Below are positions 17,812 to 30,466 of a stretch of 64,000 bases of DNA, in pieces. A model generated the notes under the pieces. The model ran no database searches, was not told where the DNA came from, and saw nothing but the letters and a program-made list of their open reading frames with translations. The stretch's first letter is position 1; each line of letters begins with the position of its first letter. The stretch comes from a virus: the IMG/VR virus record IMGVR_UViG_3300034374_005666, positions 39,256 to 103,255 of that record. The stretch is one strand, 5' to 3'. Both the position numbers and the translations under genes were made by a program.

Positions 17812-18266
17812 TTTACACTAGAACGTTCACTACTGTCCTCTACAATAGCTGCTAAATGTGATTTATCATTCTTATCCAGAATGAAATTATCACACTTTAA
17901 AAGGTATTGTTTGTCTGTTGAATCTACGTATTCTTTTGCTGCTAGACAACACTGCTCAAATGTAATGTTATACCTTTTCATAACAGCTCTAAGTAACTTT
18001 TCTACTACATCTTTAGTTGAAGCATACCCAGTTCTACCTGAATAAGCTTTCATCCAATACTTTCTAAACTTATCTATATCTATAATATCTCCTTCAGGCA
18101 CATATCTCAATCTGCACTGTTTATCATAGTCAAGAACTAATAATCCTTCTCCATACAATTCAGAACTTACTCTTTGAATAAGTTCATGTTTATCTGGATG
18201 TGCCCATGTCTTGTAATCCAAATCGTATTCAACCAATGCAATAACAAATTTCTGTTCATCATTCAT
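17802..18266 (-). CDS. Unknown protein, possible helicase loader
   Basis: 154 residues, mainly helical, cytosolic, with a basic centre (FRKYWMKAYSGRTGY) and a C-terminal segment KCDNFILDKNDKSHLAAIVE. No ATP-binding motif. Its place directly upstream of and overlapping the DnaB-like helicase gene is where many phages encode the helicase loader or a primosome organiser; the function is inferred from this alone. Confidence 0.55.
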   Translation of the reverse strand: MNDEQKFVIALVEYDLDYKTWAHPDKHELIQRVSSELYGEGLLVLDYDKQCRLRYVPEGDIIDIDKFRKYWMKAYSGRTGYASTKDVVEKLLRAVMKRYNITFEQCCLAAKEYVDSTDKQYLLKCDNFILDKNDKSHLAAIVEDSSERSSVKWL

Positions 18267-18304
18267 AGTTTATTCAATTTCAATGATTGCTGCACCAATG
18301 TACA

Positions 18305-18520
18305 TTATTCTTTGTTTTTGTAATAGTGATTAAGCACCCTTCTGGATGATTTGATTTTCTTTTGTTTCTTTTCTTCTCTGAGCTGTTCTATCCATTGTTT
18401 TGCTCTTTTCAGTGCAAACTCTGGAAAATAGAATGGAGTAGCTGTTTTATGGATAATTTCTCCATCATTCTCAACTACTCCATAGTACATGTCATTCTTC
18501 TTTTCTGTCTTTGCTTCCAT
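18305..18520 (-). CDS. Small basic protein
   Basis: 71 residues. It begins MEAKTEKKNDMYYGVVENDG, has a middle helix ALKRAKQWIEQLREEKKQKK, and ends in a basic tail. This resembles small phage proteins of unknown role. It overlaps the membrane peptide gene upstream by 29 nt. Confidence 0.5.
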   Translation of the reverse strand: MEAKTEKKNDMYYGVVENDGEIIHKTATPFYFPEFALKRAKQWIEQLREEKKQKKIKSSRRVLNHYYKNKE

Positions 18521-18611
18521 ATGTAAACAATGCTTGTATAAATGATATAATGAAAAATATTGGTATTAGTGCAGGTAAGATAAACAATAGACACCCTCTT
18601 TCAGATTTCAT
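18492..18611 (-). CDS. 39-residue single-pass membrane peptide
   Basis: Start ATG 18611, sequence MKSERGCLLFILPALIPIFF followed by IISFIQALF and a charged tail. One hydrophobic helix of about 20 residues flanked by charges suggests an inner-membrane peptide. It lies 4 nt after the SF2 helicase stop and overlaps the next gene by 29 nt, which supports translation. Confidence 0.45.
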   Translation of the reverse strand: MKSERGCLLFILPALIPIFFIISFIQALFTYGSKDRKEE

Positions 18612-18615
18612 AATT

Positions 18616-19905
18616 CTAATTTTGAGACAGCAATACTCTGCTATCGTAATGTCCAACAATATTCAAGTCATGCTCTTGGATTAATTCTCCACGCATGCCT
18701 TTTTCTTTCTTTAACTTATCAAACCATTTTTCTTCAAGAGTACCTTGGGTGACTATAAAGTACAGATTAGCTACACCTTCAACCCATCTGATTCTAGCTC
18801 TACGTTGTTCCATATTATGCCACTTAGAGCTATAGCTGAAGAAGATAATATTCTGCACTCCTTCCAATGTAATACCTTGTTTAAGCATTTTACTGGAAGC
18901 AATAACAGGTTCTTCTCCACTATTGAATTTTTCAATCAACTCTAGCGCATTATCTGATCTGACTACAGGGCATATATTCTCTAGTATATCAAGACGTTCA
19001 CCAAATATGAGTGTCTTACCAGATAGTGTACTCAGTAAAGCTTTTGTTGTAGCTACTTTGGACTTCAGATTGTACAGAAAGGTAGTTAATTCTCTACCAA
19101 TAGCCATCTTAAGATACTTTGGTTTACGAAAATCCTTTCTGAAGTTATCTTTCTTTAGATAATACTCTTGCTCTGTACCTAATGTATCATAGCTCTTCCA
19201 TATCTTGATTGATCTGTCTTGAGTATCCAGATGGTGATTGATTATCCAAGTTTGATACTTAGCAATCATACCTTCTTCAATAGCCTGTTTAGTCTCTACT
19301 TTGTATACTACAGGAATATACATAGATAGCAATTGCCCCTTACTAATAAACTCTGTAATCTCTCCTCTTTTAGTTTCTGCATCTGTCTGATAAATTGTAA
19401 GAAGGTCAGCATTATCCTGTATGTCTTGAGGATATACGTGCTGGTCTAAAGACATAGCTCCAGTCAATGCAACAACATGCTTACACTTGTTGTTTATTAT
19501 ATTCTCACTATACTTAGCTGACAAGCCATCTTGAATTTCATCTGCTACCAGTAAACCTATGTTTTCAAAGTTATTAAACTCTTCCACAGGCATAGCTTGA
19601 TAGCATCTGAACTGAATGTTAAAATCAGCTACAGGGTCTTTATCAAACAGGCTTTTAAACTTAGGTATTTCATCTTCAAACAATGTCTTTTCACGTACTA
19701 TAGTCTCTGCCAGAAATACAATAGTATCTCCTTTATTGATCTTTCCATCTTCCAGCAATCTATATGCAGCCTTCAGGGAAGCTATAGTTTTACCAGCACC
19801 AGGAAACAGCATCCATGTACCTACATAGTTATTTTGTACCCAAGCTTCTACAGCTTGGTCTTGATGGTAATTCAGTCTTTCTATATTTCTTTTCATAGTC
19901 TGCAT
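18616..19905 (-). CDS. SF2 helicase (SNF2/DEAD-type)
   Basis: 429 residues. Motif I FPGAGKT lies at 34-40, motif II DEIQ at 122-125, then SKMLKQGITLEGVQ (motif V region) and QRRARIRW (motif VI). Both RecA domains are present but compact. SF2 helicases of this kind are constant members of crAss-like replication modules. The start ATG 19905 lies inside the conserved tail of micro-ORF I-18 with the same 13-nt overlap used between micro-ORFs, so translation of this gene is wired to the array upstream. Confidence 0.8.
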   Translation of the reverse strand: MQTMKRNIERLNYHQDQAVEAWVQNNYVGTWMLFPGAGKTIASLKAAYRLLEDGKINKGDTIVFLAETIVREKTLFEDEIPKFKSLFDKDPVADFNIQFRCYQAMPVEEFNNFENIGLLVADEIQDGLSAKYSENIINNKCKHVVALTGAMSLDQHVYPQDIQDNADLLTIYQTDAETKRGEITEFISKGQLLSMYIPVVYKVETKQAIEEGMIAKYQTWIINHHLDTQDRSIKIWKSYDTLGTEQEYYLKKDNFRKDFRKPKYLKMAIGRELTTFLYNLKSKVATTKALLSTLSGKTLIFGERLDILENICPVVRSDNALELIEKFNSGEEPVIASSKMLKQGITLEGVQNIIFFSYSSKWHNMEQRRARIRWVEGVANLYFIVTQGTLEEKWFDKLKKEKGMRGELIQEHDLNIVGHYDSRVLLSQN

Positions 19906-20030
19906 ATTATTCTGTTGCTTAAAGTTAAATCAATTGCTCTATCTGGAATAGAGTATGCTGTTCTATTGTAATACTTGTATTCATATCTAAATAAAGGATA
20001 AAAGAAACAGTAATATTTTAGATATAACAT
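19893..20030 (-). CDS. Micro-ORF I-18
   Basis: 45 residues, MLYLKYYCFFYPLFRYEYKY then a Pro-Asp-Arg core and the tail SNRIICRL. Unusually Tyr-rich. It is the last member; its tail overlaps the helicase start by 13 nt, and its stop is TGA. Confidence 0.7.
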   Translation of the reverse strand: MLYLKYYCFFYPLFRYEYKYYNRTAYSIPDRAIDLTLSNRIICRL

Positions 20031-20149
20031 AGTATTCTGTTTGAAATTCTTCTGGCTCGAAAGCCAGCTCTTGTCCACCCAGCAGCATTAAAATGAAATA
20101 AATCTATATAGCTTGCTTTTTTGTAAAGTTTAGTCTTTATAAGTAGCAT
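20018..20149 (-). CDS. Micro-ORF I-17
   Basis: 43 residues, MLLIKTKLYKKASYIDLFHF, one Trp in NAAGWTRAGF, tail SNRILCYI. Basic overall. 13-nt overlaps on both sides. Confidence 0.7.
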   Translation of the reverse strand: MLLIKTKLYKKASYIDLFHFNAAGWTRAGFRARRISNRILCYI

Positions 20150-20280
20150 AGTATTCTATTTGATAAAGCATCAAGACCTGATATATCCCACTCATAAACT
20201 TTAACCCAATCTTCTGGTTCTTCCCTATAACGGTTAGCCCATACTAACCTAGTACCATAAATCATATTTATACAAAACAT
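20137..20280 (-). CDS. Micro-ORF I-16
   Basis: 47 residues, MFCINMIYGTRLVWANRY, then EEPEDWVKVYEWDISGL with three Trp in all, tail SNRILCYL. Acidic core. 13-nt overlaps on both sides. Confidence 0.7.
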   Translation of the reverse strand: MFCINMIYGTRLVWANRYREEPEDWVKVYEWDISGLDALSNRILCYL

Positions 20281-20408
20281 ACTATTCTATTTGATGCAAA
20301 CTGATAGTTTACTTGGCTCCAATGTTTGACACAAGTAATTGTGTGGTCTAGATAAACTGATGACCATCTAAAATTATAACTATCATAAAGTTTATTTAAC
20401 AGTAACAT
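20268..20408 (-). CDS. Micro-ORF I-15
   Basis: 46 residues, MLLLNKLYDSYNFRWSSVYL, then a Cys and CVKHWSQVNY, tail SNRIVCFV. The YNFRW segment resembles the F/Y-x-W segment of several other members. 13-nt overlaps on both sides. Confidence 0.7.
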   Translation of the reverse strand: MLLLNKLYDSYNFRWSSVYLDHTITCVKHWSQVNYQFASNRIVCFV

Positions 20409-20545
20409 ACTATTCTTATTGTGTTGTCTGAAGGTGGTATGAATCTACTGTAGTAAGGGTCTTCCCGTTCTTCATGGTAAAACACAGATCTGTAGTTACT
20501 ATGACAGTAAAAAGTTATTGCTGTAACTATTTCTATATTACACAT
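20396..20545 (-). CDS. Micro-ORF I-14
   Basis: 49 residues, MCNIEIVTAITFYCHSNYRS, then FYHEEREDPYYSRF, tail TIRIVCYC. No Trp, but Tyr- and His-rich. 13-nt overlaps on both sides. Confidence 0.7.
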   Translation of the reverse strand: MCNIEIVTAITFYCHSNYRSVFYHEEREDPYYSRFIPPSDNTIRIVCYC

Positions 20546-20670
20546 AATATTCTATTTGTAATAAACCAAGCTCCTGCATGGCTATAAAAATCATGGAAAT
20601 CCCATCCTGGTTCAAATGACCAGTCATATACGTGCTCACCATATAAAGCAGAGTGATTTAAAATATACAT
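20533..20670 (-). CDS. Micro-ORF I-13
   Basis: 45 residues, MYILNHSALYGEHVYDWSFE, then PGWDFHDFYSHAGAWF, tail TNRILCVI. Three Trp; one of the most aromatic members. Stop is TAG. 13-nt overlaps on both sides. Confidence 0.7.
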   Translation of the reverse strand: MYILNHSALYGEHVYDWSFEPGWDFHDFYSHAGAWFITNRILCVI

Positions 20671-20798
20671 ATTATTCTATTTGTAAATCCGTTATCGTGA
20701 TATTCCATTATACTTAATATTGCTACATACCTATACGTAGTCCAGTAATAATGATCTAATACTATAAATCCATATGTTGTGTAACTTATATGTAGCAT
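20658..20798 (-). CDS. Micro-ORF I-12
   Basis: 46 residues, MLHISYTTYGFIVLDHYYWT, then a hydrophobic VAILSIM segment, tail TNRIICIF. 13-nt overlaps on both sides. Confidence 0.7.
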   Translation of the reverse strand: MLHISYTTYGFIVLDHYYWTTYRYVAILSIMEYHDNGFTNRIICIF

Positions 20799-20926
20799 AC
20801 TGTTTTGAATGTTTGTACTCTGTTTAATCTTCTAATAAACCAAAGAATCAGCCTATATTTAAAAGAAAACCTTGTTTTATGTATATAGTTAACTCCTTTA
20901 GGACTAACTATCATTATACGTAGCAT
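20786..20926 (-). CDS. Micro-ORF I-11
   Basis: 46 residues, MLRIMIVSPKGVNYIHKTRF, then FKYRLILWFIRRLNRV, tail TFKTVCYI. The only member with Lys instead of Arg at position -6 of the tail. Strongly basic. 13-nt overlaps on both sides. Confidence 0.65.
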   Translation of the reverse strand: MLRIMIVSPKGVNYIHKTRFSFKYRLILWFIRRLNRVQTFKTVCYI

Positions 20927-21036
20927 ACTGGCCTAATTGTGTCTATTCTTATAAATAAAGTAATTGGAAACCATCTATTAGAAAAAGAACACTCAAAGTT
21001 ATAGTTCAAGCATTGTTTAAATCCTAGTTTTCGCAT
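20914..21036 (-). CDS. Micro-ORF I-10
   Basis: 40 residues, MRKLGFKQCLNYNFECSFSN, then RWFPITLFIRI, tail TIRPVCYV. First member after the inserted plus-strand gene. Its start is not embedded in an upstream tail; a degenerate copy of the motif (AGAATAATATAAAC) lies about 20 nt upstream. Confidence 0.65.
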   Translation of the reverse strand: MRKLGFKQCLNYNFECSFSNRWFPITLFIRIDTIRPVCYV

Positions 21037-21045
21037 GTGCGTATA

Positions 21046-21076
21046 TTGTTTATATTATTCTGAATACCTATGTTTG
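21046..21076 (+). promoter_or_regulatory. Bacteroidota-type promoter for the phosphoesterase
   Basis: TTG at 21046-21048, 20 nt, then TATGTTTG at 21069-21076, fitting the Bacteroidota TTTG/TAnnTTTG promoter. It lies 18 nt before the plus-strand ATG at 21095, giving this gene its own transcript against the array. Confidence 0.55.
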
Positions 21077-21094
21077 TTGTAAACAGAATAACTT

Positions 21095-21910
21095 ATGCAG
21101 ATCAATAAGATTAATGATCTATACATGGAAATACGTATTCCATACAGATCAATGAGGACTTCTTCCTATTTTCATTTATGCTCAGATGTTCACTTCGATA
21201 ATCCAGACTCAGACCAAAAGCTCTTCTTTAGCCATCTGGACAAGATTAAAAGCCTTAATGGTAAAAGCTTAATCTTTGGTGATTTCCTCTGTTTAATGCA
21301 GGGAAAATACGACCTGCGTAGTGATAAATCTAAGATCAGACCAGAGCATAACAAGAGCAATTATCTTGATGCTGTACTTGACGATACGGCGGATAAACTC
21401 AAACCTTACAAAAAGACTTTGGGTATGATTAGCTTAGGTAATCACGAAAGCCGCGTTATTGAAAGAAATGAAATTGATCCATTGCATAACTTAGCATTAC
21501 GTCTCAAAGGACTAAATACTATGGGTTATCATGGATTTATAAAGTTTATCTTTCACAACAATGGTTCTAAAGTAAGGTCATGTCTTCTCTATTTCCATCA
21601 TGGTAAATGGGGCAGTATAACCAGTTCAGTTAATAAACATGGACTTTCTGTACCACAAGCAGATATTATTGTCTCAGGTCACACACATTCTGAATTTTAT
21701 GTACCTGTACCTAGATTAAATCTGCGACAAAATGGTGAAGTAAGTATTACTAAACAGCATCACATTAAGTGTGGTACTTATAAAGATGAGTTTTTGACTA
21801 CTAAAGGTTTTGGAGTAGAAAGAATAGCTGTACCTAAGAATATAGGTTCATGGCTACTCAAGCTTACACCTACAGAAAAAGATGTAGATATTAAGTTTGA
21901 GTCTATGTAA
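21095..21910 (+). CDS. Calcineurin-like metallophosphoesterase
   Basis: 271 residues. Asp31-x-His33 (SDVHFD), Gly62-Asp63 (FGDFLC), GNHE at 115-118, His in YFHHGKWG and GHTH in VSGHTHSEFY are the five metal-binding blocks of the calcineurin-like phosphoesterase fold. Substrates of the family include nucleotides, cyclic nucleotides, RNA and DNA; none can be chosen here. It is the only plus-strand gene in the left 37 kb, sits inside micro-ORF array I, and ends 8 nt into micro-ORF I-9, so it looks like a later insertion with its own promoter. Confidence 0.8.
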   Translation: MQINKINDLYMEIRIPYRSMRTSSYFHLCSDVHFDNPDSDQKLFFSHLDKIKSLNGKSLIFGDFLCLMQGKYDLRSDKSKIRPEHNKSNYLDAVLDDTADKLKPYKKTLGMISLGNHESRVIERNEIDPLHNLALRLKGLNTMGYHGFIKFIFHNNGSKVRSCLLYFHHGKWGSITSSVNKHGLSVPQADIIVSGHTHSEFYVPVPRLNLRQNGEVSITKQHHIKCGTYKDEFLTTKGFGVERIAVPKNIGSWLLKLTPTEKDVDIKFESM

Positions 21911-22049
21911 TGCAGATTATTCTATTTGTTAACCAATAAGACCTTTCTAAGAAATTATCATGGTAAGGCCATTTGTTCCAATCAGCTAATTCAGCTTCAA
22001 AATCTTCATGGTTGTAGTAAAGAAATAAACATTCATTTACATGTAACAT
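21903..22049 (-). CDS. Micro-ORF I-9
   Basis: 48 residues, MLHVNECLFLYYNHEDFEAE, then ADWNKWPYHDNF, tail TNRIICIT with stop TAG. Next to the inserted gene its tail has CTG where others have ATG, so no start is embedded, yet Arg and Cys are kept. Its end overlaps the convergent phosphoesterase by 8 nt. Confidence 0.7.
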   Translation of the reverse strand: MLHVNECLFLYYNHEDFEAELADWNKWPYHDNFLERSYWLTNRIICIT

Positions 22050-22183
22050 ATCATTCTCATTGTAGTATTGCTGTTAAGCACAGCATGTATAATCTTACGA
22101 CTTTCTAGTATTGCATCTATTCCCTCAAACAAATTATCAAAAGTTTCAAACAGAATAAATCTAAAACAATTTATAGTATGCAT
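22037..22183 (-). CDS. Micro-ORF I-8
   Basis: 48 residues, MHTINCFRFILFETFDNLFE, then GIDAILESRKIIHAVLNS, tail TMRMICYM. No Trp. 13-nt overlaps on both sides. Confidence 0.65.
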   Translation of the reverse strand: MHTINCFRFILFETFDNLFEGIDAILESRKIIHAVLNSNTTMRMICYM

Positions 22184-22305
22184 ATAGTACGTATTGTAGT
22201 GTCTGTATATCCAAAGTTTCCACCATAAACAAAAGAGTATTTAAATAAATTACCCATTGACAAATAGCATGTGTATGCTTTAATACAATTGAGTAGTTTT
22301 ATCAT
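22171..22305 (-). CDS. Micro-ORF I-7
   Basis: 44 residues, MIKLLNCIKAYTCYLSMGNL, then FVYGGNFGYTD, tail TIRTICIL. The tail Arg is coded CGT, not AGA as in its neighbours, so the residue rather than the codon is kept. It starts by a 4-nt ATGA overlap with I-6b. Confidence 0.65.
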   Translation of the reverse strand: MIKLLNCIKAYTCYLSMGNLFKYSFVYGGNFGYTDTTIRTICIL

Positions 22306-22469
22306 ACTTCAAACGTTTTATTCCACACATACACTAGTATGTGATAGAATCCATCATTCTTAGCTACTATATAGTAACCTTTCATATCTGTAACTAATCT
22401 TTCTAATTCAATCTCAAGCATATATGCAGGTATAACTGCAATATATGCACCATTCAAGTCTTCCAGCAT
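22302..22469 (-). CDS. Atypical small ORF I-6b
   Basis: 55 residues, MLEDLNGAYIAVIPAYMLEI, ending VYVWNKTFEV. It has no Cys tail and is in a different frame from the expected member I-6, which stops after 12 codons. It may be a real unrelated peptide or the rest of a frameshifted member. Confidence 0.4.
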   Translation of the reverse strand: MLEDLNGAYIAVIPAYMLEIELERLVTDMKGYYIVAKNDGFYHILVYVWNKTFEV

Positions 22470-22492
22470 TTGTTTACTATTATAAGTGACAT
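22454..22492 (-). pseudogene. Truncated micro-ORF I-6
   Basis: Starts at the expected ATG 22492 with the regular 13-nt overlap, reads MSLIIVNKCWKT and stops at TGA. A one-base shift would join it to the frame of I-6b. It is the only regular start in the two arrays that does not lead to a full-length member. Confidence 0.5.
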
Positions 22493-22608
22493 AATATTCT
22501 TATTGATTGGTCATCTATTCTCATTGCCATTACCCAATGATTATTGCTGTATTCAAAATTATAAGATGGAAATTTTGGATAGCTTATAAGCCGTTTTATA
22601 CATAGCAT
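22480..22608 (-). CDS. Micro-ORF I-5
   Basis: 42 residues, MLCIKRLISYPKFPSYNFEY, then NNHWVMAMRIDD, tail SIRILCHL. 13-nt overlaps on both sides. Confidence 0.7.
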   Translation of the reverse strand: MLCIKRLISYPKFPSYNFEYSNNHWVMAMRIDDQSIRILCHL

Positions 22609-22727
22609 AATATTCTGTTTGATTTGTCTCGTATTTCTAAAGAAGTATTTATAAAAACATTATCTTCATACCATTTATAACTGTATGAGTCATATACTTT
22701 TGTTATACATTTTATTATAGTTGACAT
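22596..22727 (-). CDS. Micro-ORF I-4
   Basis: 43 residues, MSTIIKCITKVYDSYSYKWY, then an acidic/aliphatic EDNVFINTSLEIRD, tail SNRILCYV. 13-nt overlaps on both sides. Confidence 0.7.
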   Translation of the reverse strand: MSTIIKCITKVYDSYSYKWYEDNVFINTSLEIRDKSNRILCYV

Positions 22728-22834
22728 ATTATTCTATAGTTTGTGTATCTTTGTCTCAAGTATTTAAGTGCAAAAGACTGGAATTTAAAATTGAGTAAGT
22801 AATGACGAGTACCTTTTGCTATAAATGACAGCAT
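22715..22834 (-). CDS. Micro-ORF I-3
   Basis: 39 residues, MLSFIAKGTRHYLLNFKFQS, then FALKYLRQRY, tail NYRIICQL. Basic. The upstream junction is the one exception to the 13-nt rule (16 nt). Confidence 0.7.
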   Translation of the reverse strand: MLSFIAKGTRHYLLNFKFQSFALKYLRQRYTNYRIICQL

Positions 22835-22959
22835 ATTCTTAATGATTCATCTAAACTAAAGTGAAGAAATACACCAAACTTTTGATCTAATAAAATCTCT
22901 TTATGAGAGTATGTTATCCAAAGTCTTGTATAGGTTAAAAAAGTCTTTATATGTAGCAT
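22819..22959 (-). CDS. Micro-ORF I-2
   Basis: 46 residues, MLHIKTFLTYTRLWITYSHK, then EILLDQKFGVFLHFSLD, tail SLRICCHL, stop TAG. Here the next ATG generates the Cys at -4, yet a separate TGT keeps Cys at -3. Confidence 0.7.
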   Translation of the reverse strand: MLHIKTFLTYTRLWITYSHKEILLDQKFGVFLHFSLDESLRICCHL

Positions 22960-23084
22960 ATAACTCTATTTGTGCTGCTAAGAAAGCTTACATACTTGTT
23001 CTTATCTATATTGGTAAAGAAACGTGCATTAAAGCTAATCAACTGTTTGTTTATAAATGACTCATAAAAAATAATTCTTAACAT
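22947..23084 (-). CDS. Micro-ORF I-1
   Basis: 45 residues, MLRIIFYESFINKQLISFNA, tail TNRVICYI. First member of array I, about 20 nt after a terminator. Its start is not embedded in an upstream tail but its residues 1-4 (Met-Leu-Arg-Ile) match the later members. Confidence 0.65.
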   Translation of the reverse strand: MLRIIFYESFINKQLISFNARFFTNIDKNKYVSFLSSTNRVICYI

Positions 23085-23105
23085 AGTTCAGCATAAATTA
23101 AAGAA

Positions 23106-23133
23106 CCCTGACATCCAATTAAGGACATCAGGG
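23106..23133 (-). terminator. Hairpin terminator
   Basis: CCCTGA (23106-23111) pairs with TCAGGG (23128-23133), with extra pairs inside and a TTCTTT tract on the minus strand. It separates the gene at 23171 from micro-ORF array I. Confidence 0.6.
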
Positions 23134-23170
23134 TCTTGTTTACCAATAACCAGCTTGGTTAAAAAAATAA

Positions 23171-23455
23171 TTAGTCGTACATCTCCATGTTACGCTCAGT
23201 AAATGGGTTGTATTCCCGTGCAATGATATTCTCATGTACACCTGCTGGAACTTGTACAGCTCCATGAGGTTCACGTACTTGAGAGTGACCTTTTACAGGT
23301 ACTTCATGGTTGATTACGCTGTCTACAGTAGTCTGATACAAGAAATTGCTCAATGGAGCATCGCCTTTGATAGTGATTTTCTTCTTCACTACTGGCTGTG
23401 CTGATTTCAGTACGTGCGCATGTGTACCTTCAGCAAGAACTAATTTGTGATTCAT
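23171..23455 (-). CDS. Unknown His-rich small protein
   Basis: 94 residues. The N-terminus MNHKLVLAEGTHAHVLKSAQ and a middle with several His and Pro (INHEVPVKGHSQVREPHGAV) suggest metal binding or an extended strand-rich fold. No signal peptide. It is a single gene between a 43-nt spacer and a terminator. No family recognised. Confidence 0.55.
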   Translation of the reverse strand: MNHKLVLAEGTHAHVLKSAQPVVKKKITIKGDAPLSNFLYQTTVDSVINHEVPVKGHSQVREPHGAVQVPAGVHENIIAREYNPFTERNMEMYD

Positions 23456-23498
23456 TGTTAAACTAGTTTTAATGATTTACAAATATAATAAAATAATC

Positions 23499-24239
23499 TT
23501 AAGTCTGCTGATTAATGAGCTTAAAGAACTCATCTCCAGACAAATAGTAAGGTGTGACAGGTTTTAGCTCAGAACTATCTTTAACATCGTAAGTAACTGT
23601 ATAGACCTCACCTTGACGATTGATCTCTTTAATCTGCTTTTTGTCGTGTGTGATTTCACACAGCCAAGCTACTGCGTCTTTGACAGAATAGCTACCCTGC
23701 TGGCAAAAGTTTTCTCTGTCATCTACAGTTGCCCAATACTCTCTGTGAGTAGAAGGACACCAGAACTGAATAGCAAACACATCTCTACGCCTGTCTTCAA
23801 AGCCTAGTTCTTTTGGGCTGATAGACCATAAATGATATGTATCACCTATGTTAGACTCCCTGTTATCAGGCTCAAAGTTGAAAGTATCTACTTTCTTTTT
23901 GTTCTCTATATTATTGAACATTTGAGCAGGCCCAATATAGAAGAAAGCAATACGGCGCAGGTCTATATTCTCAATATGACTGGCTGCCTTAAAGTCAATA
24001 GCTTCTACTGAAGCCCAAATATCATCTAAGAAGCTCTTTAGCTCCTCCAGTGCCTTATTGTAAGCATTAATATGCTCCATGTTAAGATTCGTACCTTTGA
24101 TCTTCTTAGGCTCAAAGATGTCTGTTTCTTCTCTGTACATTTCAGCTGTAGTATCATATCTGGCTTTCATAATGCTACAGAACATATCAAACTTGATAGG
24201 CACATTGTCGATTGTAAAACTCAGTTTGCTAGGATTCAT
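23499..24239 (-). CDS. Unknown protein in polymerase operon
   Basis: 246 residues, cytosolic, mixed helices and strands. The middle reads RRIAFFYIGPAQMFNNIENK and later VFAIQFWCPSTHREYWATVD. No catalytic motif is recognised. It follows the FGE-like gene by 4 nt and so belongs to the DNA polymerase transcript. Confidence 0.6.
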   Translation of the reverse strand: MNPSKLSFTIDNVPIKFDMFCSIMKARYDTTAEMYREETDIFEPKKIKGTNLNMEHINAYNKALEELKSFLDDIWASVEAIDFKAASHIENIDLRRIAFFYIGPAQMFNNIENKKKVDTFNFEPDNRESNIGDTYHLWSISPKELGFEDRRRDVFAIQFWCPSTHREYWATVDDRENFCQQGSYSVKDAVAWLCEITHDKKQIKEINRQGEVYTVTYDVKDSSELKPVTPYYLSGDEFFKLINQQT

Positions 24240-24243
24240 AGAC

Positions 24244-24885
24244 TTAATCTTTTTTAGTTACATACTCTACACATACTTCAAGAAAGTTACCAATCATGTC
24301 ATACAGACCATATTTATTTGGCATCTTGGTTCCAGGCAGTGCAGGTTTTTGCCCACTATTACCAGGATGGACAGCTACTGCATCAAGACCATGCTCTTTA
24401 ATCTGGTCTTCTGCATCTGCTTTAAGGAACTCCCACTCATCTACTGAGGGAAGTCTAAAGCCTTTCACATTAATATCTGATAGAAATACCCCATCATCAT
24501 TAATGACATATGGTAATTCAGGTAATCCAAGAAAAACATTATATTCAGCAAATGTTTTGTCTGCATGTTCGTGATTAGCATCCATCTCACCTACTTTAGT
24601 AACTTCAGTAAGCCAGTTTAGATAGTGACACACGTCAATATCTCTGATATTAGCTACTGGTAGATTTCCCCTACCAAAGCCTGAATCTGACGGGAGTGTA
24701 CGTCCTGTAGCAATACAGAACTTAGCCCATTGATTATGGCTAGTAGGATAGATTGCAGCAAAGAACCTACTGTTAAAGTTCTCTGGCTTAAGTACTTCAA
24801 TATACTCATTAGTAAGTTCCACAAATGGTGGCAACTCATGGTCAGTCTGTGTGACAACAGGCTGTGCTCCAAATGTAAATTCCAT
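24244..24885 (-). CDS. Formylglycine-generating-enzyme-like domain protein
   Basis: 213 residues. PTSHNQWAKFC (opening strand), NLPVANIRDIDVCHYLNWL, GFRLPSVDEWEFLKA and the closing PNKYGLYDMIGNFLEVC are the successive landmarks of the FGE-sulfatase (SUMF1) domain, a C-type-lectin-like fold. Phage members usually act as binding domains; I cannot see the paired active-site Cys of true FGE. Its place between the polymerase and an unknown gene in the replication arm is odd, since such domains normally sit in tail genes. The usual GNVWEW is GNFLEV here. Confidence 0.7.
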   Translation of the reverse strand: MEFTFGAQPVVTQTDHELPPFVELTNEYIEVLKPENFNSRFFAAIYPTSHNQWAKFCIATGRTLPSDSGFGRGNLPVANIRDIDVCHYLNWLTEVTKVGEMDANHEHADKTFAEYNVFLGLPELPYVINDDGVFLSDINVKGFRLPSVDEWEFLKADAEDQIKEHGLDAVAVHPGNSGQKPALPGTKMPNKYGLYDMIGNFLEVCVEYVTKKD

Positions 24886-24896
24886 AACTTGATTGT

Positions 24897-26756
24897 TTAG
24901 AAGATTGTTAGTTGATTATTTCTTTCAATTGTTTGTATAATACTGTTAGCCTGATGAATATAAAAGCTGTAATCTATGTCAGATATAGCTTCATCAGTAT
25001 GAGTGTTATACAGTTTAACACCATAGCCTTTTAGCATATGGGTCTTTTTATTGTTCTTTAGCTTGTACAAGTATTTTCCTTTCTTACTTACATAGTACCT
25101 ATTTAATCTTTGAGGAAGAACCTCATCTCCATATACAACTTTAAAGCTTTTATCTACTTTTTTAGACAAACAGTAATTGAATATATGATGGTCACCTTTA
25201 ATGTAGCTGTCTACAGATTGTCCTGTTCTAAAATAGTTTACTATAGCTTTTGGTACAATTAGCATATTACAGCTATCACCAAGATTAGGATTTTCTATAA
25301 AGCTTGAACCTTTAGTCTTGTATTTACCATTAGGTTTAATGGCAATATAGTTATTTACATTAGCATAGCATATTTTAGAATATTGCTCATGCTCAAATTC
25401 AAGATTAAATGTTTTTCCTACATTATCTACTATAGATAGGTATTCTTGTTCTCTATCGACAGGTACTATACACTCAAGACCGTCTGTATTCAAGCTGACT
25501 ACCTGAAAACCAGCAATAGCTAAATCTTCAAGAGTTTTAGTGAGTACAAGTTGTCCTTGCAGTCTCATCTTCATAGCTCCTTCTGGATAATACAACCATG
25601 AGTAAGGACTATCAAGTAAACCCGACAGACTATTAAGTACAAGCTTTAGAGTAACATTCTTTGCTCCATCACCTGTACGCTTAGCTTCCATACGTTCATC
25701 TTTGATACGTATGTAACTATTAAGTACTTCAGACTGTCTAATCAAACCATAGTTAATGATAAGATTTGGATATAGTGAACCTACGTCTGATGTATACACA
25801 ATATTGTGCTTATCAGATGTATATATTTCATTATTGTTTACTGAATGTATACCACCTACACCATAGCTCAATTTAATAGCAGTATTTCTATGTATAAAGT
25901 TTAATTCTGTATGAAATTCTCTACCTGCACATTGCATAGATGTGTATAATGTCTTGAAAATATGAAGCTTAAACTCTGGATTATGTAGTTCAAGACATTC
26001 ATTGCTATTGTATGTGCTTTTACGAGTTTCGTATTTGTCTGCACCTGTTTGTTTACAATATTCATCAAGCATAATCTCAGATGCAATCTTAGGAGCATCC
26101 CAAGACAAGCAATCAAGGTTATATGTTCTTTGAATATTGCGTCTAAGTTCTATCTGTTCTGCTACTGTAGTAGGTTTACCTTGCCATCTGATGGTATCAA
26201 ACAGTATTTTACGCATAATACCCATATCATGCTCATAATTGTAGTGTTTGACTTCTTCAGCCTGACTACGACTTAAATGCATACCAGGTGGATATGGCAG
26301 CTCTTGCACTATAGGATATCCAAGTTGTATACCTAAAGATTTCAAACTAATCTTTTTACTCAGTCTGAGCATTCTAGACCAGTGTAGATATACATCTATA
26401 TCAATCCAGGGATGATTGTATTTGTACTTTTTAAGATTCTGTTGTCTCCACCACATATCAGTACGTATAATATACTGACTAAATTTATCAATCTCTGCAC
26501 ATATTTCATGTACAGGTAATTGTTTGAGACTATCGTATTGTACTATTATAAATTTGATAACAGGACTATCATAGTGTATACCATTAAAACTAACTAGTTC
26601 TGCATTATGCAAGGCAGTATTATATGTCCATACTATTTTATCTAAATCATCTTGCCACTCACTAATTTCTAGTATTTCTTTCTCACCTGTATTATAGTTT
26701 TCTATAGTAGTACAAAAAAAGTTAGGATATACTTCTATGTCATGTCCATACATCAT
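24897..26756 (-). CDS. Family B DNA polymerase
   Basis: 619 residues. The 3'-5' exonuclease is marked by Asp6 and Glu8 (GHDIEVYPNF) and SFNGIHYDSPVI. Polymerase motif A is SDVGSLYPNLI, motif B TLKLVLNSLSGLLD and motif C SLNTDGLEC, where the first Asp of the usual DTD is Asn. The length is short for family B, as in protein-primed or crAss-like phage enzymes. The ATG at 26756 overlaps the stop of micro-ORF II-9 as ATGA. Confidence 0.75.
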   Translation of the reverse strand: MMYGHDIEVYPNFFCTTIENYNTGEKEILEISEWQDDLDKIVWTYNTALHNAELVSFNGIHYDSPVIKFIIVQYDSLKQLPVHEICAEIDKFSQYIIRTDMWWRQQNLKKYKYNHPWIDIDVYLHWSRMLRLSKKISLKSLGIQLGYPIVQELPYPPGMHLSRSQAEEVKHYNYEHDMGIMRKILFDTIRWQGKPTTVAEQIELRRNIQRTYNLDCLSWDAPKIASEIMLDEYCKQTGADKYETRKSTYNSNECLELHNPEFKLHIFKTLYTSMQCAGREFHTELNFIHRNTAIKLSYGVGGIHSVNNNEIYTSDKHNIVYTSDVGSLYPNLIINYGLIRQSEVLNSYIRIKDERMEAKRTGDGAKNVTLKLVLNSLSGLLDSPYSWLYYPEGAMKMRLQGQLVLTKTLEDLAIAGFQVVSLNTDGLECIVPVDREQEYLSIVDNVGKTFNLEFEHEQYSKICYANVNNYIAIKPNGKYKTKGSSFIENPNLGDSCNMLIVPKAIVNYFRTGQSVDSYIKGDHHIFNYCLSKKVDKSFKVVYGDEVLPQRLNRYYVSKKGKYLYKLKNNKKTHMLKGYGVKLYNTHTDEAISDIDYSFYIHQANSIIQTIERNNQLTIF

Positions 26757-26869
26757 AATTTACATATTATTCTTATTGTAAAGTAGTCAGGTCTAGATTG
26801 CCATGACCAAACCCAAAAGTCTGTATACGCTGTTTTACCAACATCTTTAAAGTATTTTATATGTAGCAT
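26753..26869 (-). CDS. Micro-ORF II-9
   Basis: 38 residues, MLHIKYFKDVGKTAYTDFWV, then WSWQSRPDYF, tail TIRIICKL. Three Trp in five residues. Its embedded ATG is followed at once by TAA, so it is dead; coupling to the polymerase is by a 4-nt ATGA overlap instead. Confidence 0.7.
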   Translation of the reverse strand: MLHIKYFKDVGKTAYTDFWVWSWQSRPDYFTIRIICKL

Positions 26870-26994
26870 ATTATTCTTATTGTATAAGATTCAGGGAGTA
26901 TCCAACCCATTAGAAACCACTTAAAAAGAAATACACTTTCATCTCTAAAGAAATAAGAAAAACCAGAAAGTCTATATTTATCTATATATAACAT
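26857..26994 (-). CDS. Micro-ORF II-8
   Basis: 45 residues, MLYIDKYRLSGFSYFFRDES, then VFLFKWFLMGWILPES, tail TIRIICYI. The central part is hydrophobic enough for a membrane contact. 13-nt overlaps on both sides. Confidence 0.7.
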   Translation of the reverse strand: MLYIDKYRLSGFSYFFRDESVFLFKWFLMGWILPESYTIRIICYI

Positions 26995-27125
26995 ATTATT
27001 CTAATTGTAGTACCTCTTGGAAAGACCATATCTATTAAATTCCAATGAAACGTAGACTTATGCTTAAACAACCTTTCTACATATCTCTCTGAACCTATTA
27101 AAACTAAATTATCTACATAACGCAT
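26982..27125 (-). CDS. Micro-ORF II-7
   Basis: 47 residues, MRYVDNLVLIGSERYVERLF, then KHKSTFHWNLIDMVFPRG, tail TIRIICYI, stop TAG. 13-nt overlaps on both sides. Confidence 0.7.
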   Translation of the reverse strand: MRYVDNLVLIGSERYVERLFKHKSTFHWNLIDMVFPRGTTIRIICYI

Positions 27126-27256
27126 ACTATTCTATTTTCAACTGTTGAGGGAAGATTCATTCGTAAAATAGACCAATCAAAATTATTCCAAGGTTTATCA
27201 AATGTTGACATGTAAGTAATATTCTCTAATAGTCTATAATGTTTTATACGTAGCAT
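27113..27256 (-). CDS. Micro-ORF II-6
   Basis: 47 residues, MLRIKHYRLLENITYMSTFD, then KPWNNFDWSILRMNLPS, tail ENRIVCVM, stop TAG. 13-nt overlaps on both sides. Confidence 0.7.
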   Translation of the reverse strand: MLRIKHYRLLENITYMSTFDKPWNNFDWSILRMNLPSTVENRIVCVM

Positions 27257-27387
27257 ATTATTCTAGTTGTCATTGACATAGTAATAGGCCAATTAGGCTC
27301 AAAAAACCAAGAAAAGCCATTGAAATCTATATCTCCTGAATTATAGCTATAATTTTCTTTTCTGCATATTCTATTTATACGTAACAT
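27244..27387 (-). CDS. Micro-ORF II-5
   Basis: 47 residues, MLRINRICRKENYSYNSGDI, then FNGFSWFFEPNWPITM, tail TTRIICYV. INRIC near the start repeats the tail motif, as if two members had recombined. 13-nt overlaps on both sides. Confidence 0.7.
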   Translation of the reverse strand: MLRINRICRKENYSYNSGDIDFNGFSWFFEPNWPITMSMTTRIICYV

Positions 27388-27518
27388 AGTATTCTAATTG
27401 TTTCTACTCTATCAAAAAATATATTATTATCATTTTCAAGTATCCATTGTAAAGGTCTGTCTCCTACACGCCCATAAGTAAATCTTCCTTCGACACCTAT
27501 ATATACTATAAGTTGCAT
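27375..27518 (-). CDS. Micro-ORF II-4
   Basis: 47 residues, MQLIVYIGVEGRFTYGRVGD, then RPLQWILENDNNIFFD, tail TIRILCYV. 13-nt overlaps on both sides. Confidence 0.7.
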   Translation of the reverse strand: MQLIVYIGVEGRFTYGRVGDRPLQWILENDNNIFFDRVETIRILCYV

Positions 27519-27664
27519 ATTATTCTGATTGTTTCATCGTTAAGCATGATATCAAGCGGGCTAGAATCTCCACTAAGGCCAAACTCCAAAGCATCAATTT
27601 CTATAGAATTTGAAAACCATGAAAAACCTGAAGTAAGCTTATACATTAATGTTATATTACGCAT
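27506..27664 (-). CDS. Micro-ORF II-3
   Basis: 52 residues, MRNITLMYKLTSGFSWFSNS, then an acidic IEIDALEFGLSGDSS, tail TIRIICNL, stop TAG. The GFSWF segment recurs in II-5 and, as GFSYF, in II-8. 13-nt overlaps on both sides. Confidence 0.7.
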   Translation of the reverse strand: MRNITLMYKLTSGFSWFSNSIEIDALEFGLSGDSSPLDIMLNDETIRIICNL

Positions 27665-27810
27665 ATCGATCTTATTGTTTCTACATCATCTGTACGTAAA
27701 GAAGATGTACTTATTATAAACCAAGCTCTAAGCTCTATATCATCTCTTTCATGTTCATATTTCCATGAACATGTGCCTAATGTTCTTATCAATCCTATTA
27801 CAGCATGCAT
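27652..27810 (-). CDS. Micro-ORF II-2
   Basis: 52 residues, MHAVIGLIRTLGTCSWKYEH, then ERDDIELRAWFI, tail TIRSICVI. 13-nt overlaps on both sides. Confidence 0.7.
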   Translation of the reverse strand: MHAVIGLIRTLGTCSWKYEHERDDIELRAWFIISTSSLRTDDVETIRSICVI

Positions 27811-27950
27811 ATTATTCTAATTGATTCAGTATCTCCTGTGTTTACAGGCCAGTGAACTAATAAATTCCATGCCTTTATAGCATGAGGATAATAATGTTTA
27901 TCCCTGTTTGAATAATTACCTAAAACAATTAATGTTTTTACATTCATCAT
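27798..27950 (-). CDS. Micro-ORF II-1
   Basis: 50 residues, MMNVKTLIVLGNYSNRDKHY, then PHAIKAWNLLVHWPVN, tail SIRIICML. First member of array II; ATG at 27950 or 27947. Confidence 0.65.
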   Translation of the reverse strand: MMNVKTLIVLGNYSNRDKHYYPHAIKAWNLLVHWPVNTGDTESIRIICML

Positions 27951-27963
27951 AGGCTGTTAGATT

Positions 27964-27997
27964 AAAAAAGAGCAACTCAATTAAGAATTGCTCTTTT
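27964..27997 (-). terminator. Strong hairpin terminator
   Basis: AAAAGAGCAA (27966-27975) pairs perfectly with TTGCTCTTTT (27988-27997), with a T run on the minus strand. It ends the cell-wall hydrolase transcript just before array II. Confidence 0.8.
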
Positions 27998-27999
27998 GT

Positions 28000-28515
28000 T
28001 TATTTGTATTTTGGATCGAAGCAATATACATGGTAGCCTACCTGCTTCCATGCGTATTTTTCAATGTATTTATACCAACTTGTATTAGGATTGTCATTTG
28101 CACCTATAAAGTATGCAATTCCTTCAGGTGCTGGCCTGTAACCCTTAAGAACCATCTCTGCAGCCTCATAGTGGACTTCTAGGGGCTTTTTATTGAAGTT
28201 GTCTGTATACGCTCCATAATAAGCCTTGCCTCTGCTGTAGGTCTTAAAAATGGCTCCATACACATCCGTATTATATTTTTTGGTTTTGTGTAACACAGTC
28301 TGAGCTATTATCATATTGGACAATAGACCTTGGTTGCAATCTTCCGATCTGATAAGTCTTGCAATAAGTTCTTTATCAGTCTGATTGACTGGTCTCACTG
28401 TGATTTCAGGGAGCGTTATGGTAGGAATAAGAATATGCTCATAAGTATGAGCTGACTGAATGGTTAATGGTATAAATATCAGTAGAAATACAATAAATCT
28501 AGCATACATGTTCAA
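28000..28515 (-). CDS. Secreted SleB-like cell-wall hydrolase
   Basis: 171 residues. The N-terminus MNMYARFIVFLLIFIPLTIQ with SAHT is a Sec signal peptide. The mature part opens with LIARLIRSEDCNQG (Glu in RSE) and MIIAQTVLHKTKKYNTDVYG, and YFIGANDNPN lies near the end; this order resembles cell-wall hydrolases of the SleB family (Hydrolase_2). It would cut peptidoglycan from the periplasm, complementing the amidase at 5161. It is monocistronic. Confidence 0.6.
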   Translation of the reverse strand: MNMYARFIVFLLIFIPLTIQSAHTYEHILIPTITLPEITVRPVNQTDKELIARLIRSEDCNQGLLSNMIIAQTVLHKTKKYNTDVYGAIFKTYSRGKAYYGAYTDNFNKKPLEVHYEAAEMVLKGYRPAPEGIAYFIGANDNPNTSWYKYIEKYAWKQVGYHVYCFDPKYK

Positions 28516-28533
28516 TTGGTATTGTGAAAAAAT

Positions 28534-28559
28534 AAGGTGAACAGTTTCCCATTCACCTT
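28534..28559 (-). terminator. Hairpin terminator
   Basis: AAGGTGAA (28534-28541) pairs with TTCACCTT (28552-28559), with a T run beyond on the minus strand. Ends the SANT-like gene. Confidence 0.75.
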
Positions 28560-28575
28560 TTATTCTTGGGTAAAG

Positions 28576-28983
28576 TTACAAAGAATAAACTTTGTCTACA
28601 ATACTACCTCTTATCTCTTCAATGTTACTCAAGAGTGAACCACCTTCAAACAGTACATAAGTAGTACCATTGAGTGTGGTGTACACTTTTGTAATCTTTC
28701 TAAGCCTCATGCCATAAATAGCATGTTGACCAAGAAGAGGATGTGTTTCATTTTCTTCTTGAGGCTCTTCTGTATTGACAAGAAGATTGTGTAGTTCAAG
28801 TTGGTTTTCATCAGGCTCACACCTGATTTGTACAATCTTACCAACTACTGCGTGTTCAGTACGCTTAACAAGTCTTGCTATTTTAGCAGTTTCTTCTTTA
28901 GCTATATAAGCATTCACTACAGCCTGTTCTTCTTTAGAAGTCCAACGTTTATAATGATTTTCTGGACGCGATGTTACTAACAT
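28576..28983 (-). CDS. Myb/SANT-like DNA-binding protein
   Basis: 135 residues. Residues 13-53 (YKRWTSKEEQAVVNAYIAKE, then ETAKIARLVKRTEHAVVGKI) show the Trp, acidic helix and final RT-x2-AV helix of a Myb/SANT-like helix-turn-helix. The C-terminal half is beta-rich (YVLFEGGSLLSNIEEI) and could be an effector or dimerisation part. It is a monocistronic unit with its own terminator. A transcription regulator of the early region is the likely role. Confidence 0.65.
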   Translation of the reverse strand: MLVTSRPENHYKRWTSKEEQAVVNAYIAKEETAKIARLVKRTEHAVVGKIVQIRCEPDENQLELHNLLVNTEEPQEENETHPLLGQHAIYGMRLRKITKVYTTLNGTTYVLFEGGSLLSNIEEIRGSIVDKVYSL

Positions 28984-29009
28984 AATTTATTTCAGTTTAA
29001 AGAAAAAGA

Positions 29010-29039
29010 ACTGCCCCACAGATAATTCCATGAGGCAGT
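29010..29039 (-). terminator. Hairpin terminator
   Basis: ACTGCC (29010-29015) and CCA with GGCAGT (29034-29039) and TGG-type inner pairs; a run ending in TTCTTTTTCT follows on the minus strand. It ends the OB-like gene. Confidence 0.7.
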
Positions 29040-29064
29040 CTTTACAAACACCCTATGAGAACTC

Positions 29065-29445
29065 TTAGATTACAGCACCTGCTTGACGAGCTTCTGCTTC
29101 AGTCTTTGCATTTGCCTGAGCAAACAGTGACTTAAATGCATTTGCATCAGGACGTGCTGCCTGAGTCAAAGCACTTACTGTAATCAGTACACCTTGGTCT
29201 GTCTGGATAAAAGTAGCCAGATAGGATGTACCTACTGTCATGCCTTTATCGTAGTTCTTAGCATGAATAATAGCTTGTGAATTTACGACTTGCCCATTAG
29301 GGTCAGTATACTTCACAGTACATGGGTAGTAAAGCTTACCATTACTGTTAGGCATGGGAGCTTCTGCTACTGATACCAGTTCTACCTGGCTTTGAAGATC
29401 ATACTGCTTAGTGTGGTCGTTCCAAACTTTCTGAAAATTGTTCAT
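29065..29445 (-). CDS. Unknown beta-rich, OB-fold-like protein
   Basis: 126 residues. The central part is a series of strands (GKLYYPCTVKYTDPNGQVVN, then SQAIIHAKNY and TSYLATFIQT) as in small OB folds; the C-terminus is an Ala/Gln-rich helix. Single gene with terminator. It could bind single-stranded nucleic acid, but no family is recognised. Confidence 0.55.
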   Translation of the reverse strand: MNNFQKVWNDHTKQYDLQSQVELVSVAEAPMPNSNGKLYYPCTVKYTDPNGQVVNSQAIIHAKNYDKGMTVGTSYLATFIQTDQGVLITVSALTQAARPDANAFKSLFAQANAKTEAEARQAGAVI

Positions 29446-29495
29446 AATTAAATGATTTAATGTAAATTAATGATTAAAAATAATTGAATGAAAAG

Positions 29496-29524
29496 GAGAC
29501 TACAGGTATAATACCCATAGTCTC
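29496..29524 (-). terminator. Hairpin terminator
   Basis: GAGACTA (29496-29502) pairs with TAGTCTC (29518-29524); inner GGTAT also pairs with ATACC. It closes the 50-residue gene at 29532. Confidence 0.65.
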
Positions 29525-29531
29525 ATTTAAA

Positions 29532-29684
29532 TTAAAATCGTGACCTAATTTTTGCGTTTTCTCCTCTTTTGAGATCAAGCACATGACCAAGCAAATTATC
29601 TTGCTTGGCTTCTTTTTTCTTAATCTCAAATGCTGTCTTATTCATGTAGACAGTCTTGTCTTTTTTGGTTCTGATGATCTTCAT
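29532..29684 (-). CDS. Small basic protein
   Basis: 50 residues from ATG 29684: MKIIRTKKDKTVYMNKTAFE followed by a Lys-rich helix and the C-terminus GENAKIRSRF. It is bracketed by hairpin terminators and has an AT-rich leader, so it is probably a single-gene unit. No family recognised; nucleic-acid binding is suggested by charge. Confidence 0.5.
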   Translation of the reverse strand: MKIIRTKKDKTVYMNKTAFEIKKKEAKQDNLLGHVLDLKRGENAKIRSRF

Positions 29685-29718
29685 AATTGTTGACTTTAAT
29701 TTGTTACTAAATAAAAAA

Positions 29719-29750
29719 GCCCCAACTACAATATATTCTGTAGCTGAGGC
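29719..29750 (-). terminator. Hairpin terminator after tRNA-like element
   Basis: GCCcCAaCTACA (29719-29730) pairs with TGTAGcTGaGGC (29739-29750), followed by six T on the minus strand. It lies 26 nt past the tRNA-like element. Confidence 0.7.
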
Positions 29751-29775
29751 ACAAATTCACTCTAAAAACAATAGA

Positions 29776-29860: not shown

Positions 29861-29869
29861 TTATTTAAG

Positions 29870-30352: not shown

Positions 30353-30411
30353 AGTTCAAATATAAAGAAAATAATTGAACCGTACAAATATACATAACTA
30401 TAAAGAAAAAA

Positions 30412-30443
30412 CAAGAGCAAGTACGATTAAGTACCTACTCTTG
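30412..30443 (-). terminator. Hairpin terminator
   Basis: CAAGAG (30412-30417) pairs with CTCTTG (30438-30443), inner GTAC with GTAC; a TGTTTTTTC tract follows on the minus strand. It ends the operon finishing at 30467. Confidence 0.7.
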
Positions 30444-30466
30444 CCAATCTTAACAGTCGTCATATC

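Follow-up and report, generated by a model that had tools for sequence, protein, structure and literature searches.

The window analysed here, a stretch of 64,000 nucleotides (nt) corresponding to positions 39,256 to 103,255 of the 103,255-base virus record IMGVR_UViG_3300034374_005666, contains two arrays of very short open reading frames (ORFs) that overlap one another on the minus strand. The phage bearing these arrays is crAss-like (Crassvirales), because a crAss-type major capsid protein (Pfam Crass_capsid, E 2.2e-49), portal protein (PHROG 6547) and large terminase (PHROG 6681) are encoded in the window. Both arrays sit in the minus-strand replication arm of the phage, where a hydrolase-like gene is followed, in minus-strand order, by array A (9 ORFs), a DNA polymerase gene, further genes, array B (17 ORFs) and a helicase gene. 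Array B is itself split by a plus-strand metallophosphoesterase-like gene and by a 55-amino-acid (aa) ORF.

A first-pass annotation had listed 26 minus-strand ORFs of 38-52 codons, 17 in 19893-23084 and 9 in 26753-27950, and all of them are present. Array A starts with ORF 1 (27798-27950, 50 aa), which has no overlapping tail upstream, and continues through ORF 2 (27652-27810, 52 aa; tail ETIRSICVI), ORF 3 (27506-27664, 52 aa), four ORFs of 47 aa (ORF 4, 27375-27518; ORF 5, 27244-27387; ORF 6, 27113-27256; ORF 7, 26982-27125) and ORF 8 (26857-26994, 45 aa) to ORF 9 (26753-26869, 38 aa), which retains the tail, has its tail ATG directly before a TAA, and overlaps the polymerase start with its TGA. 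The first part of array B comprises ORF 1 (22947-23084, 45 aa), ORF 2 (22819-22959, 46 aa), ORF 3 (22715-22834, 39 aa), ORF 4 (22596-22727, 43 aa) and ORF 5 (22480-22608, 42 aa). The ATG following ORF 2 lies one codon earlier than usual, giving a 16-nt overlap with Cys at -3 retained, and the tail of ORF 5 is likewise retained, with an ATG that opens just 12 codons. Beyond the 55-aa ORF lie ORF 6 (22171-22305, 44 aa; tail Arg encoded by CGT), ORF 7 (22037-22183, 48 aa) and ORF 8 (21903-22049, 48 aa), whose tail reads ATC TGC without an ATG and whose end is overlapped by no array ORF. The array resumes with ORF 9 (20914-21036, 40 aa) and runs through ORF 10 (20786-20926, 46 aa), ORF 11 (20658-20798, 46 aa), ORF 12 (20533-20670, 45 aa), ORF 13 (20396-20545, 49 aa), ORF 14 (20268-20408, 46 aa), ORF 15 (20137-20280, 47 aa) and ORF 16 (20018-20149, 43 aa) to ORF 17 (19893-20030, 45 aa; tail Ser encoded by AGC).

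The common ending is as had been annotated. Counted back from the stop codon, Cys occupies position -3 in 26/26 ORFs and Arg position -6 in 25, the remaining one (array B ORF 10) having Lys instead; position -8 is Ser or Thr in 24/26 (16 Thr and 8 Ser, with Glu and Asn as the exceptions), and position -1 is I, L, V, M or F in 24/26. The consensus of the tail is [S/T]-x-R-I-[ILV]-C-x-[ILV]. Near the other end, residue 4 is I, L, V or F in every ORF. The reported overlap of the form ATG-N7-stop also proved near-universal: 22 of the 25 successive pairs overlap, 21 by 13 nt and one by 16 nt, and the other three are interrupted by the polymerase block, the opposite-strand metallophosphoesterase gene and the 55-aa ORF, which has no tail. 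The same 13-nt overlap joins the final ORF of array B to the start of the helicase gene (19905). The longest chain of equal overlaps has a length of 9 in the window and of at most 2 in 60 first-order Markov simulations of 64 kb.

The reading frames of the window are coding-like in their codon use. In the cores, codon preference amounts to 0.212 bits per codon in frame and to -0.006 and -0.225 in the other two sense frames, compared with 0.242 in 11 further small ORFs from the window; the correct frame scores best in 20 of the 26 ORFs, 24 have a positive score, and the mean core score was reached by 0/200 base shuffles. Together with purifying selection in the arrays of relatives (ratio of nonsynonymous to synonymous substitution rates, dN/dS, 0.35; see below), this supports the proposal that the ORFs encode genuine microproteins. 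That the DNA is non-coding or degenerating and the ORFs are accidental would suit its AT-richness and the lack of a credible database match for the 26 proteins, but is contradicted by the chain statistics, by this codon use, by the selection in relatives and by the lack of an Rfam match in 18000-30500, and its probability appears negligible. The cores, which had been described as unrelated-looking, are indeed divergent, but not fully unrelated: the mean pair score is 20.3 against 18.7 +/- 0.26 for shuffled cores, a value as high as that observed occurring in 0/60 shuffles. They are also rich in aromatic residues (Trp 4.0%, where 1.2% is expected; Phe 8.8%; Tyr 8.8%).

Part of the regularity of the ends follows from the overlap itself. 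Residue 4 is largely forced to be aliphatic because the TAA or TAG stop of the previous ORF ends codon 4 (NTA), and much of the conservation of Cys at -3 arises because the overlapping ATG fixes TGN, after which C or T follows. Moreover, the tail has the features of a start signal. Relative to the next ATG, A is found at -12 in 21, at -6 in 20 and at -3 in 18 of the 22 overlapping junctions, and in the 13-nt geometry these adenines fall on the third base of the codons at -8, -6 and -5. Compared with 19 ordinary genes of the window, the tail codons are strongly biased: Thr is ACA in 16/16 cases (P 4e-6), Ser is TCA in 7/8 (P 4e-5), Arg is AGA in 23/25 (P 1e-4) and Ile is ATA in 20/20 (P 5e-8). 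Residue -7, whose third base lies at -9, shows no synonymous bias; recent duplication could likewise preserve codon choice, but would be expected to do so at this residue as well. In Flavobacterium johnsoniae, where Shine-Dalgarno sites are lacking, adenines at -3, -6, -12 and -13 promote initiation (PMC6847099). Computation thus shows the last eight codons of each ORF to be an A-rich, Shine-Dalgarno-less sequence of the initiation type for the next gene.

These observations raise the question of whether the tail is a nucleic-acid signal alone, i.e., a repeated Kozak-like start that the upstream frame happens to read as S/T-x-R-I-I-C, with no shared C-terminal function. The wobble adenines at -12, -6 and -3 favour such an explanation, as does the fact that ordinary genes in these phages are also A-rich, though less strongly than the array junctions, around -14 to -11 and at position -3. 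Several features of the tail are nevertheless difficult to explain in this way. First, NCA codons at -8 encode Thr or Ser alone, with Pro or Ala in 0/23 cases (P 7e-5). Second, the base after the tail ATG is C or T at 22/22 junctions, which avoids a stop (A) or Trp (G) in the tail, whereas ordinary genes have A there in 59%. Third, Arg is retained when encoded by CGT (once) or AGG (once), and Ser when encoded by AGC (once). Fourth, the tail is retained in 21903-22049, which lacks the ATG, in 26753-26869 and 22480-22608, where the tail ATG opens 1 and 12 codons, respectively, and in 22819-22959, where the ATG is shifted; some of the tails retained without a functional downstream ATG could be relics. 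On this balance the signal-only explanation is rather unlikely, and part of the conservation of the tail looks like constraint at the protein level. The 'shared Cys tail' of the first-pass annotation thus stands in part as a protein feature, and is at the same time the product of overlap geometry and a Kozak-like start signal for the next gene.

Within the databases and papers searched, the family also appears to be undescribed, as had been supposed. At a threshold of E 1, none of the 26 ORFs matched Pfam, PADLOC or PDB sequences, and PHROGs yielded no credible match (best E 0.035, for 1/26 members). The open-licence literature searched held no account of arrays in which co-directional microgenes overlap and have a tail in common.

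As for the surroundings of the arrays, the gene directly upstream of array A (28000-28515, minus strand) is cell-wall-hydrolase-like (Pfam Hydrolase_2, below its cut-off). The DNA polymerase gene between the arrays (24897-26756, minus strand) matches PHROG 1252 (E 1.4e-110). The gene that splits array B (21095-21910, plus strand) is metallophosphoesterase/exonuclease-like (PHROG 7339, E 9e-13; Pfam Metallophos, E 1.7e-4), and the interposed 55-aa ORF (22302-22469, minus strand) overlaps the next array ORF. The DNA helicase gene (18616-19905, minus strand), whose ATG lies inside the last tail of array B, matches PHROG 62 (E 4.8e-15) and Pfam Helicase_C and ResIII. A protein with an FGE-sulfatase domain (Pfam, E 2.7e-9) is also encoded between both arrays (24244-24885, minus strand); elsewhere, folds of this kind act as variable proteins of retroelements. 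No tRNA gene was detected in the window with ARAGORN.

Comparable arrays occur in other phages. The sole near copy found, L001, is identical to the window over 19,764 nt spanning both arrays. Among 54 relatives of the polymerase, an array was seen in L001, L055, L057 and L071. Arrays are present in L080/L055 (a 105-kb record) and in L081 (102 kb), upstream of genes for an AAA ATPase, the hydrolase and the polymerase; in L082 (99.9% identical in L057 and L083); and in L093, which came from a further search. The micro-ORFs number 46 in L080, 53 in L081 and 28 in L082, when ATG-started ORFs of 25-80 codons are counted and those overlapping a longer ORF by more than 40 nt are dropped (a few may be spurious, and gap-filling GTG-started ORFs are left out), and 19 in L093, where they were picked by hand and the array extends past the contig end. 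A crAss-type capsid is encoded in the L080 and L081 records (E 5e-23); none was found in the fragments carrying L082 (47.7 kb) and L093 (33.2 kb), whose link to the group is a polymerase 67% and 62% identical, respectively, to that of L080. The hydrolase beside the polymerase is homologous in the window, L080, L071 and L093 (BLASTP, 24-30% to the window protein), and so is the downstream helicase (21-25%, E 7e-10 to 4e-5; Pfam Helicase_C), so that the position of the array is conserved across phages. The window, L080, L081, L082 and L093 thus share one kind of array: co-directional overlapping ORFs of about 30-60 codons with a shared tail, beside a hydrolase-polymerase-helicase block.

The tails themselves differ. 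The ORFs of L080, L081 and L082 end in T-L-K-[HYQL]-[IV], and those of L082 also have a central Cys in common; many of those in L093 end in [S/T]-I-[T/I]-[I/L]-L-[Q/C]. The only relation detected between arrays links the L080/L081 family with that of L082 (hhalign 95%, in the tail only). A motif G-x-[SC]-[WY], considered as common to the window and L093, was rejected, since it occurs in 9/19 ORFs of L093 (0/1000 shuffles) but in 4/26 of the window (53/1000). As in the window, database searches returned little: nothing credible for the L080/L081 family in PHROGs (best E 0.024, in 1/58) and a best E of 0.74 for the L082 family against PDB. The Lys codon of the K tail typically lies 8 nt before the next ATG, at an overlap of 4 or 10 nt; this distance is fixed while that to the stop varies, which again favours a pure start signal, one of the data sets having been selected for that spacing.

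Overlaps in the relatives are looser than in the window, being mostly of 4, 7, 10, 13 or 19 nt, and short gaps occur. In the arrays of the window, L080, L081 and L082, the length of most overlaps (4, 7, 10, 13, 16 and 19 nt) equals 1 modulo 3, which places the next ORF in the -1 frame, as would be expected if the ORFs were pieces of one long tandem-repeat polyprotein joined by -1 frameshifting at each junction. Inspection of the junctions revealed no conserved slippery heptamer of the form X_XXY_YYZ, and frameshifting was rejected on this ground. Each unit, moreover, has its own ATG in an initiation-type context, and at the short gaps the next ATG lies just past the stop; a polyprotein is accordingly very improbable.

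Further arrays were sought in several ways. DNA patterns of the R-C tail were found in the identical phage copy only, besides single-match loci without linked arrays, and those of the K tail in L080/L081 only, plus two chance loci without arrays. A tblastn search of 50,697 phage records with the 26 peptides joined as one query gave two matches, at E 2 and 5, and a polymerase-alignment profile search of genome contigs gave no relative. A piecewise scan of the rest of four of the array-bearing phage records (G000-G003) revealed no further chain of at least 4. Five annotated crAss-like phages of fecal origin (human, pig and macaque), namely cr10_1, cr52_1, cr272_1, cr130_1 and cr118_1, have no such array in the stretch analysed around the polymerase (longest chain 4). 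As a separate observation, five crAss-like phages from feces have, in a similar place upstream of the polymerase, about 2 kb without an annotated gene (L111, 7551-9628; L112, 8442-10552; L113, 4411-6635; L114, 8066-10092; L115, 7511-9432). In L111 and L113 this stretch holds just short stop-to-stop frames on both strands, and it is perhaps a large non-coding element.

L080 and L081 allow selection to be estimated. Their arrays share 39 reciprocal-best micro-ORF pairs in preserved order, with dN 0.134, dS 0.385 and dN/dS 0.349 over 1463 codons (bootstrap 0.299-0.406). In the off frames of the same pairs dN/dS is 0.849 and 1.086, with 207 and 164 stops, and in eleven flanking genes it is 0.05-0.26. 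In the nucleotide alignment of the two arrays, substitutions at codon positions 1, 2 and 3 number 231/1431, 172/1458 and 282/1434, respectively (16.1, 11.8 and 19.7%). At the same time, 7 of the 46 ORFs in L080 and 14 of the 53 in L081 have no partner. Purifying selection accompanied by much gain and loss is therefore shown by computation in this one comparable pair. Neighbouring ORFs are more alike than distant pairs in 5/5 arrays, most clearly in L093 (P 0.0005), where there are plain tandem triplets. Local duplication thus seems to be the way in which the arrays expand and are renewed, the surviving copies being under constraint.

From these results, the arrays are probably operon-like sets of real microgenes that arose by local tandem duplication and fast divergence and serve as an early repertoire for host takeover or counter-defence. 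Translational coupling of the ORFs is likely: a ribosome ending one ORF would re-initiate at the ATG 10 nt back, and many microproteins could thereby be made at similar levels from one message. The conserved junction would let unequal recombination add, drop or swap units with expression left intact. The products, rich in aromatic residues and with conserved ends and variable middles, may act as a set of small binding proteins, made early and directed at host targets that vary, most probably as host-takeover or counter-defence factors; which class of targets they meet is a guess. A host-directed role is suggested by the location of the arrays in the replication arm, by the shortness and rapid turnover of the ORFs and by a constraint that is relaxed yet real, and the host- or defence-interaction reading would fit the turnover and duplication seen in relatives. 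The conserved ends, variable middles, many copies and probably similar expression from one message would also suit decoys or structural parts needed in many variants, such as host-protease sponges or parts of hetero-oligomers, rather than separate inhibitors. The strong divergence of the cores and the high turnover between close phages fit diversity of targets better, however, and such a role is considered improbable. On a broader view, the arrays may represent an undescribed mode of gene innovation in phages, in which tens of tandemly duplicated, coupled microgenes have C-terminal codons serving both as protein motif and as start signal of the next gene, a self-perpetuating recombination and expression cassette that makes a standing repertoire and that, with several tails, either has several origins across crAss-like phages or has diverged there until no longer recognisable; the chances of this proposal are about even.

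The following points weigh against the repertoire reading. The first-pass annotation had suggested a dN/dS check in related phages, and while the frames are under purifying selection in L080/L081, the extra constraint on the tail did not appear: in the 32 L080/L081 pairs that are 60% or more identical, dN/dS is 0.41 for the last eight codons and 0.31 for the core. In that family the tail is therefore unlikely to have a strong role as protein, which favours a tail acting as nucleic acid alone. The nucleotide alignment of the two arrays includes poorly aligned or frame-broken stretches, since just 8 of its 30 gaps have a length divisible by 3. For the window itself, the sole near relative found, L001, is identical there and offers no substitutions from which to estimate dN/dS. 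The window ORFs have no detectable homology to the other arrays, either by hhalign against alignments A5 (58 of the 68 K-tail ORFs), A6 (20/24) and A8 or by a cross-search with hidden Markov models, and the selection result from relatives therefore carries over by architecture and position alone. The likeness of neighbouring ORFs is weak in four of the five arrays (P 0.015-0.05). No array, and no chain longer than 5, was seen in 49 of the 54 polymerase relatives within the stretch examined (up to 10 kb on each side, often less; L058 starts too late to judge). AlphaFold2 gave no confident fold for window ORFs or the L080/L081 family (predicted local distance difference test scores 56 and 65, respectively), and PADLOC, whose models cover defence rather than counter-defence, gave no match.

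Known systems resemble the arrays in some respects. The T4-type hyperplastic regions, reportedly described by Arbiol et al. in 2010, are said to hold regulatory cassettes (promoter plus stem-loop) shuffled between small ORFs. They have in common with the arrays small variable early genes, a repeated regulatory element and possible modular exchange. In the arrays, however, the initiation-type element is contained in the coding ends that overlap, and the genes resemble tandem paralogues; the overlaps leave most junctions without space for an intergenic cassette of the T4 type. Anti-CRISPR (acr) genes mostly show no relationship among themselves, and the array ORFs match no known family. Anti-CRISPR loci, which are mentioned in a survey of crAss-like phages (PMC7886860), are similar in consisting of small lineage-specific phage proteins in short-gene runs. 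That survey, by Yutin et al. (2021), described blocks of short genes in crAss-like phages and, mainly in the zeta group, regions full of short ORFs 'of different polarities' that are unmatched between close genomes, and suspected counter-defence roles for short genes (PMC7886860). The window arrays likewise belong to Crassvirales and are runs of short genes without homologues, but differ from the blocks as characterised there in being co-directional, with a fixed overlap geometry and a shared tail, and, in L080/L081, in being orthologous, syntenic and under purifying selection. In T4, recombination-driven amplification of the counter-defence gene tifA (PMC9391042) offers a parallel, as a phage there changes gene copy number by recombination in answer to host defence; in that case a single known gene was amplified recently, under selection in the laboratory, whereas the arrays hold 19-53 long-diverged ORFs as standing variation. 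Finally, the Kozak-like initiation without Shine-Dalgarno sites in Bacteroidetes shares with the arrays the adenines at -3, -6 and -12 before the start codon, but is a property of single genes (PMC6847099), while in the arrays it forms part of a C-terminal coding motif that recurs from gene to gene. The hosts of most crAss-like phages are Bacteroidetes; these phages are among the most abundant human gut viruses, and their short-gene regions resist annotation (PMC7886860). With the arrays, regions of this sort gain a rule, in which the genes are real, the junction is fixed, duplication brings growth and selection can be measured. If the repertoire reading is true, each array would be a natural library of tens of microproteins tuned to host targets, and a model for making new small phage genes while keeping expression.

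Several other genes of the window deserve mention. A ThiF/E1-like protein (NCBIfam ThiF, E 9e-20, below cut-off; PRTRC ThiF, E 2e-10) is encoded in 9554-12619 on the minus strand and is adjoined by three proteins without a match. By eye alone, 10179-11234 appears JAB-protease-like and 12077-12619 ubiquitin/PRTRC-C-like, and 9554-12619 is possibly a PRTRC or ubiquitin-like module. In the replication arm, 12647-13327 (minus strand) encodes a uracil-DNA glycosylase-like protein (E 2e-29, below cut-off). A protein of the spore-photoproduct-lyase family is encoded in 1563-2414 on the minus strand (TIGR03886, E 3e-68, below cut-off) and has a homologue in L003. On the plus strand, the large terminase gene (43496-46810) appears to bear a Hint/LAGLIDADG intein (Pfam Hom_end_hint, LAGLIDADG_3), and 37580-38560 encodes a group I intron endonuclease (TIGR01453, above cut-off), relatives of which adjoin or interrupt the polymerase gene in L007 and L009.

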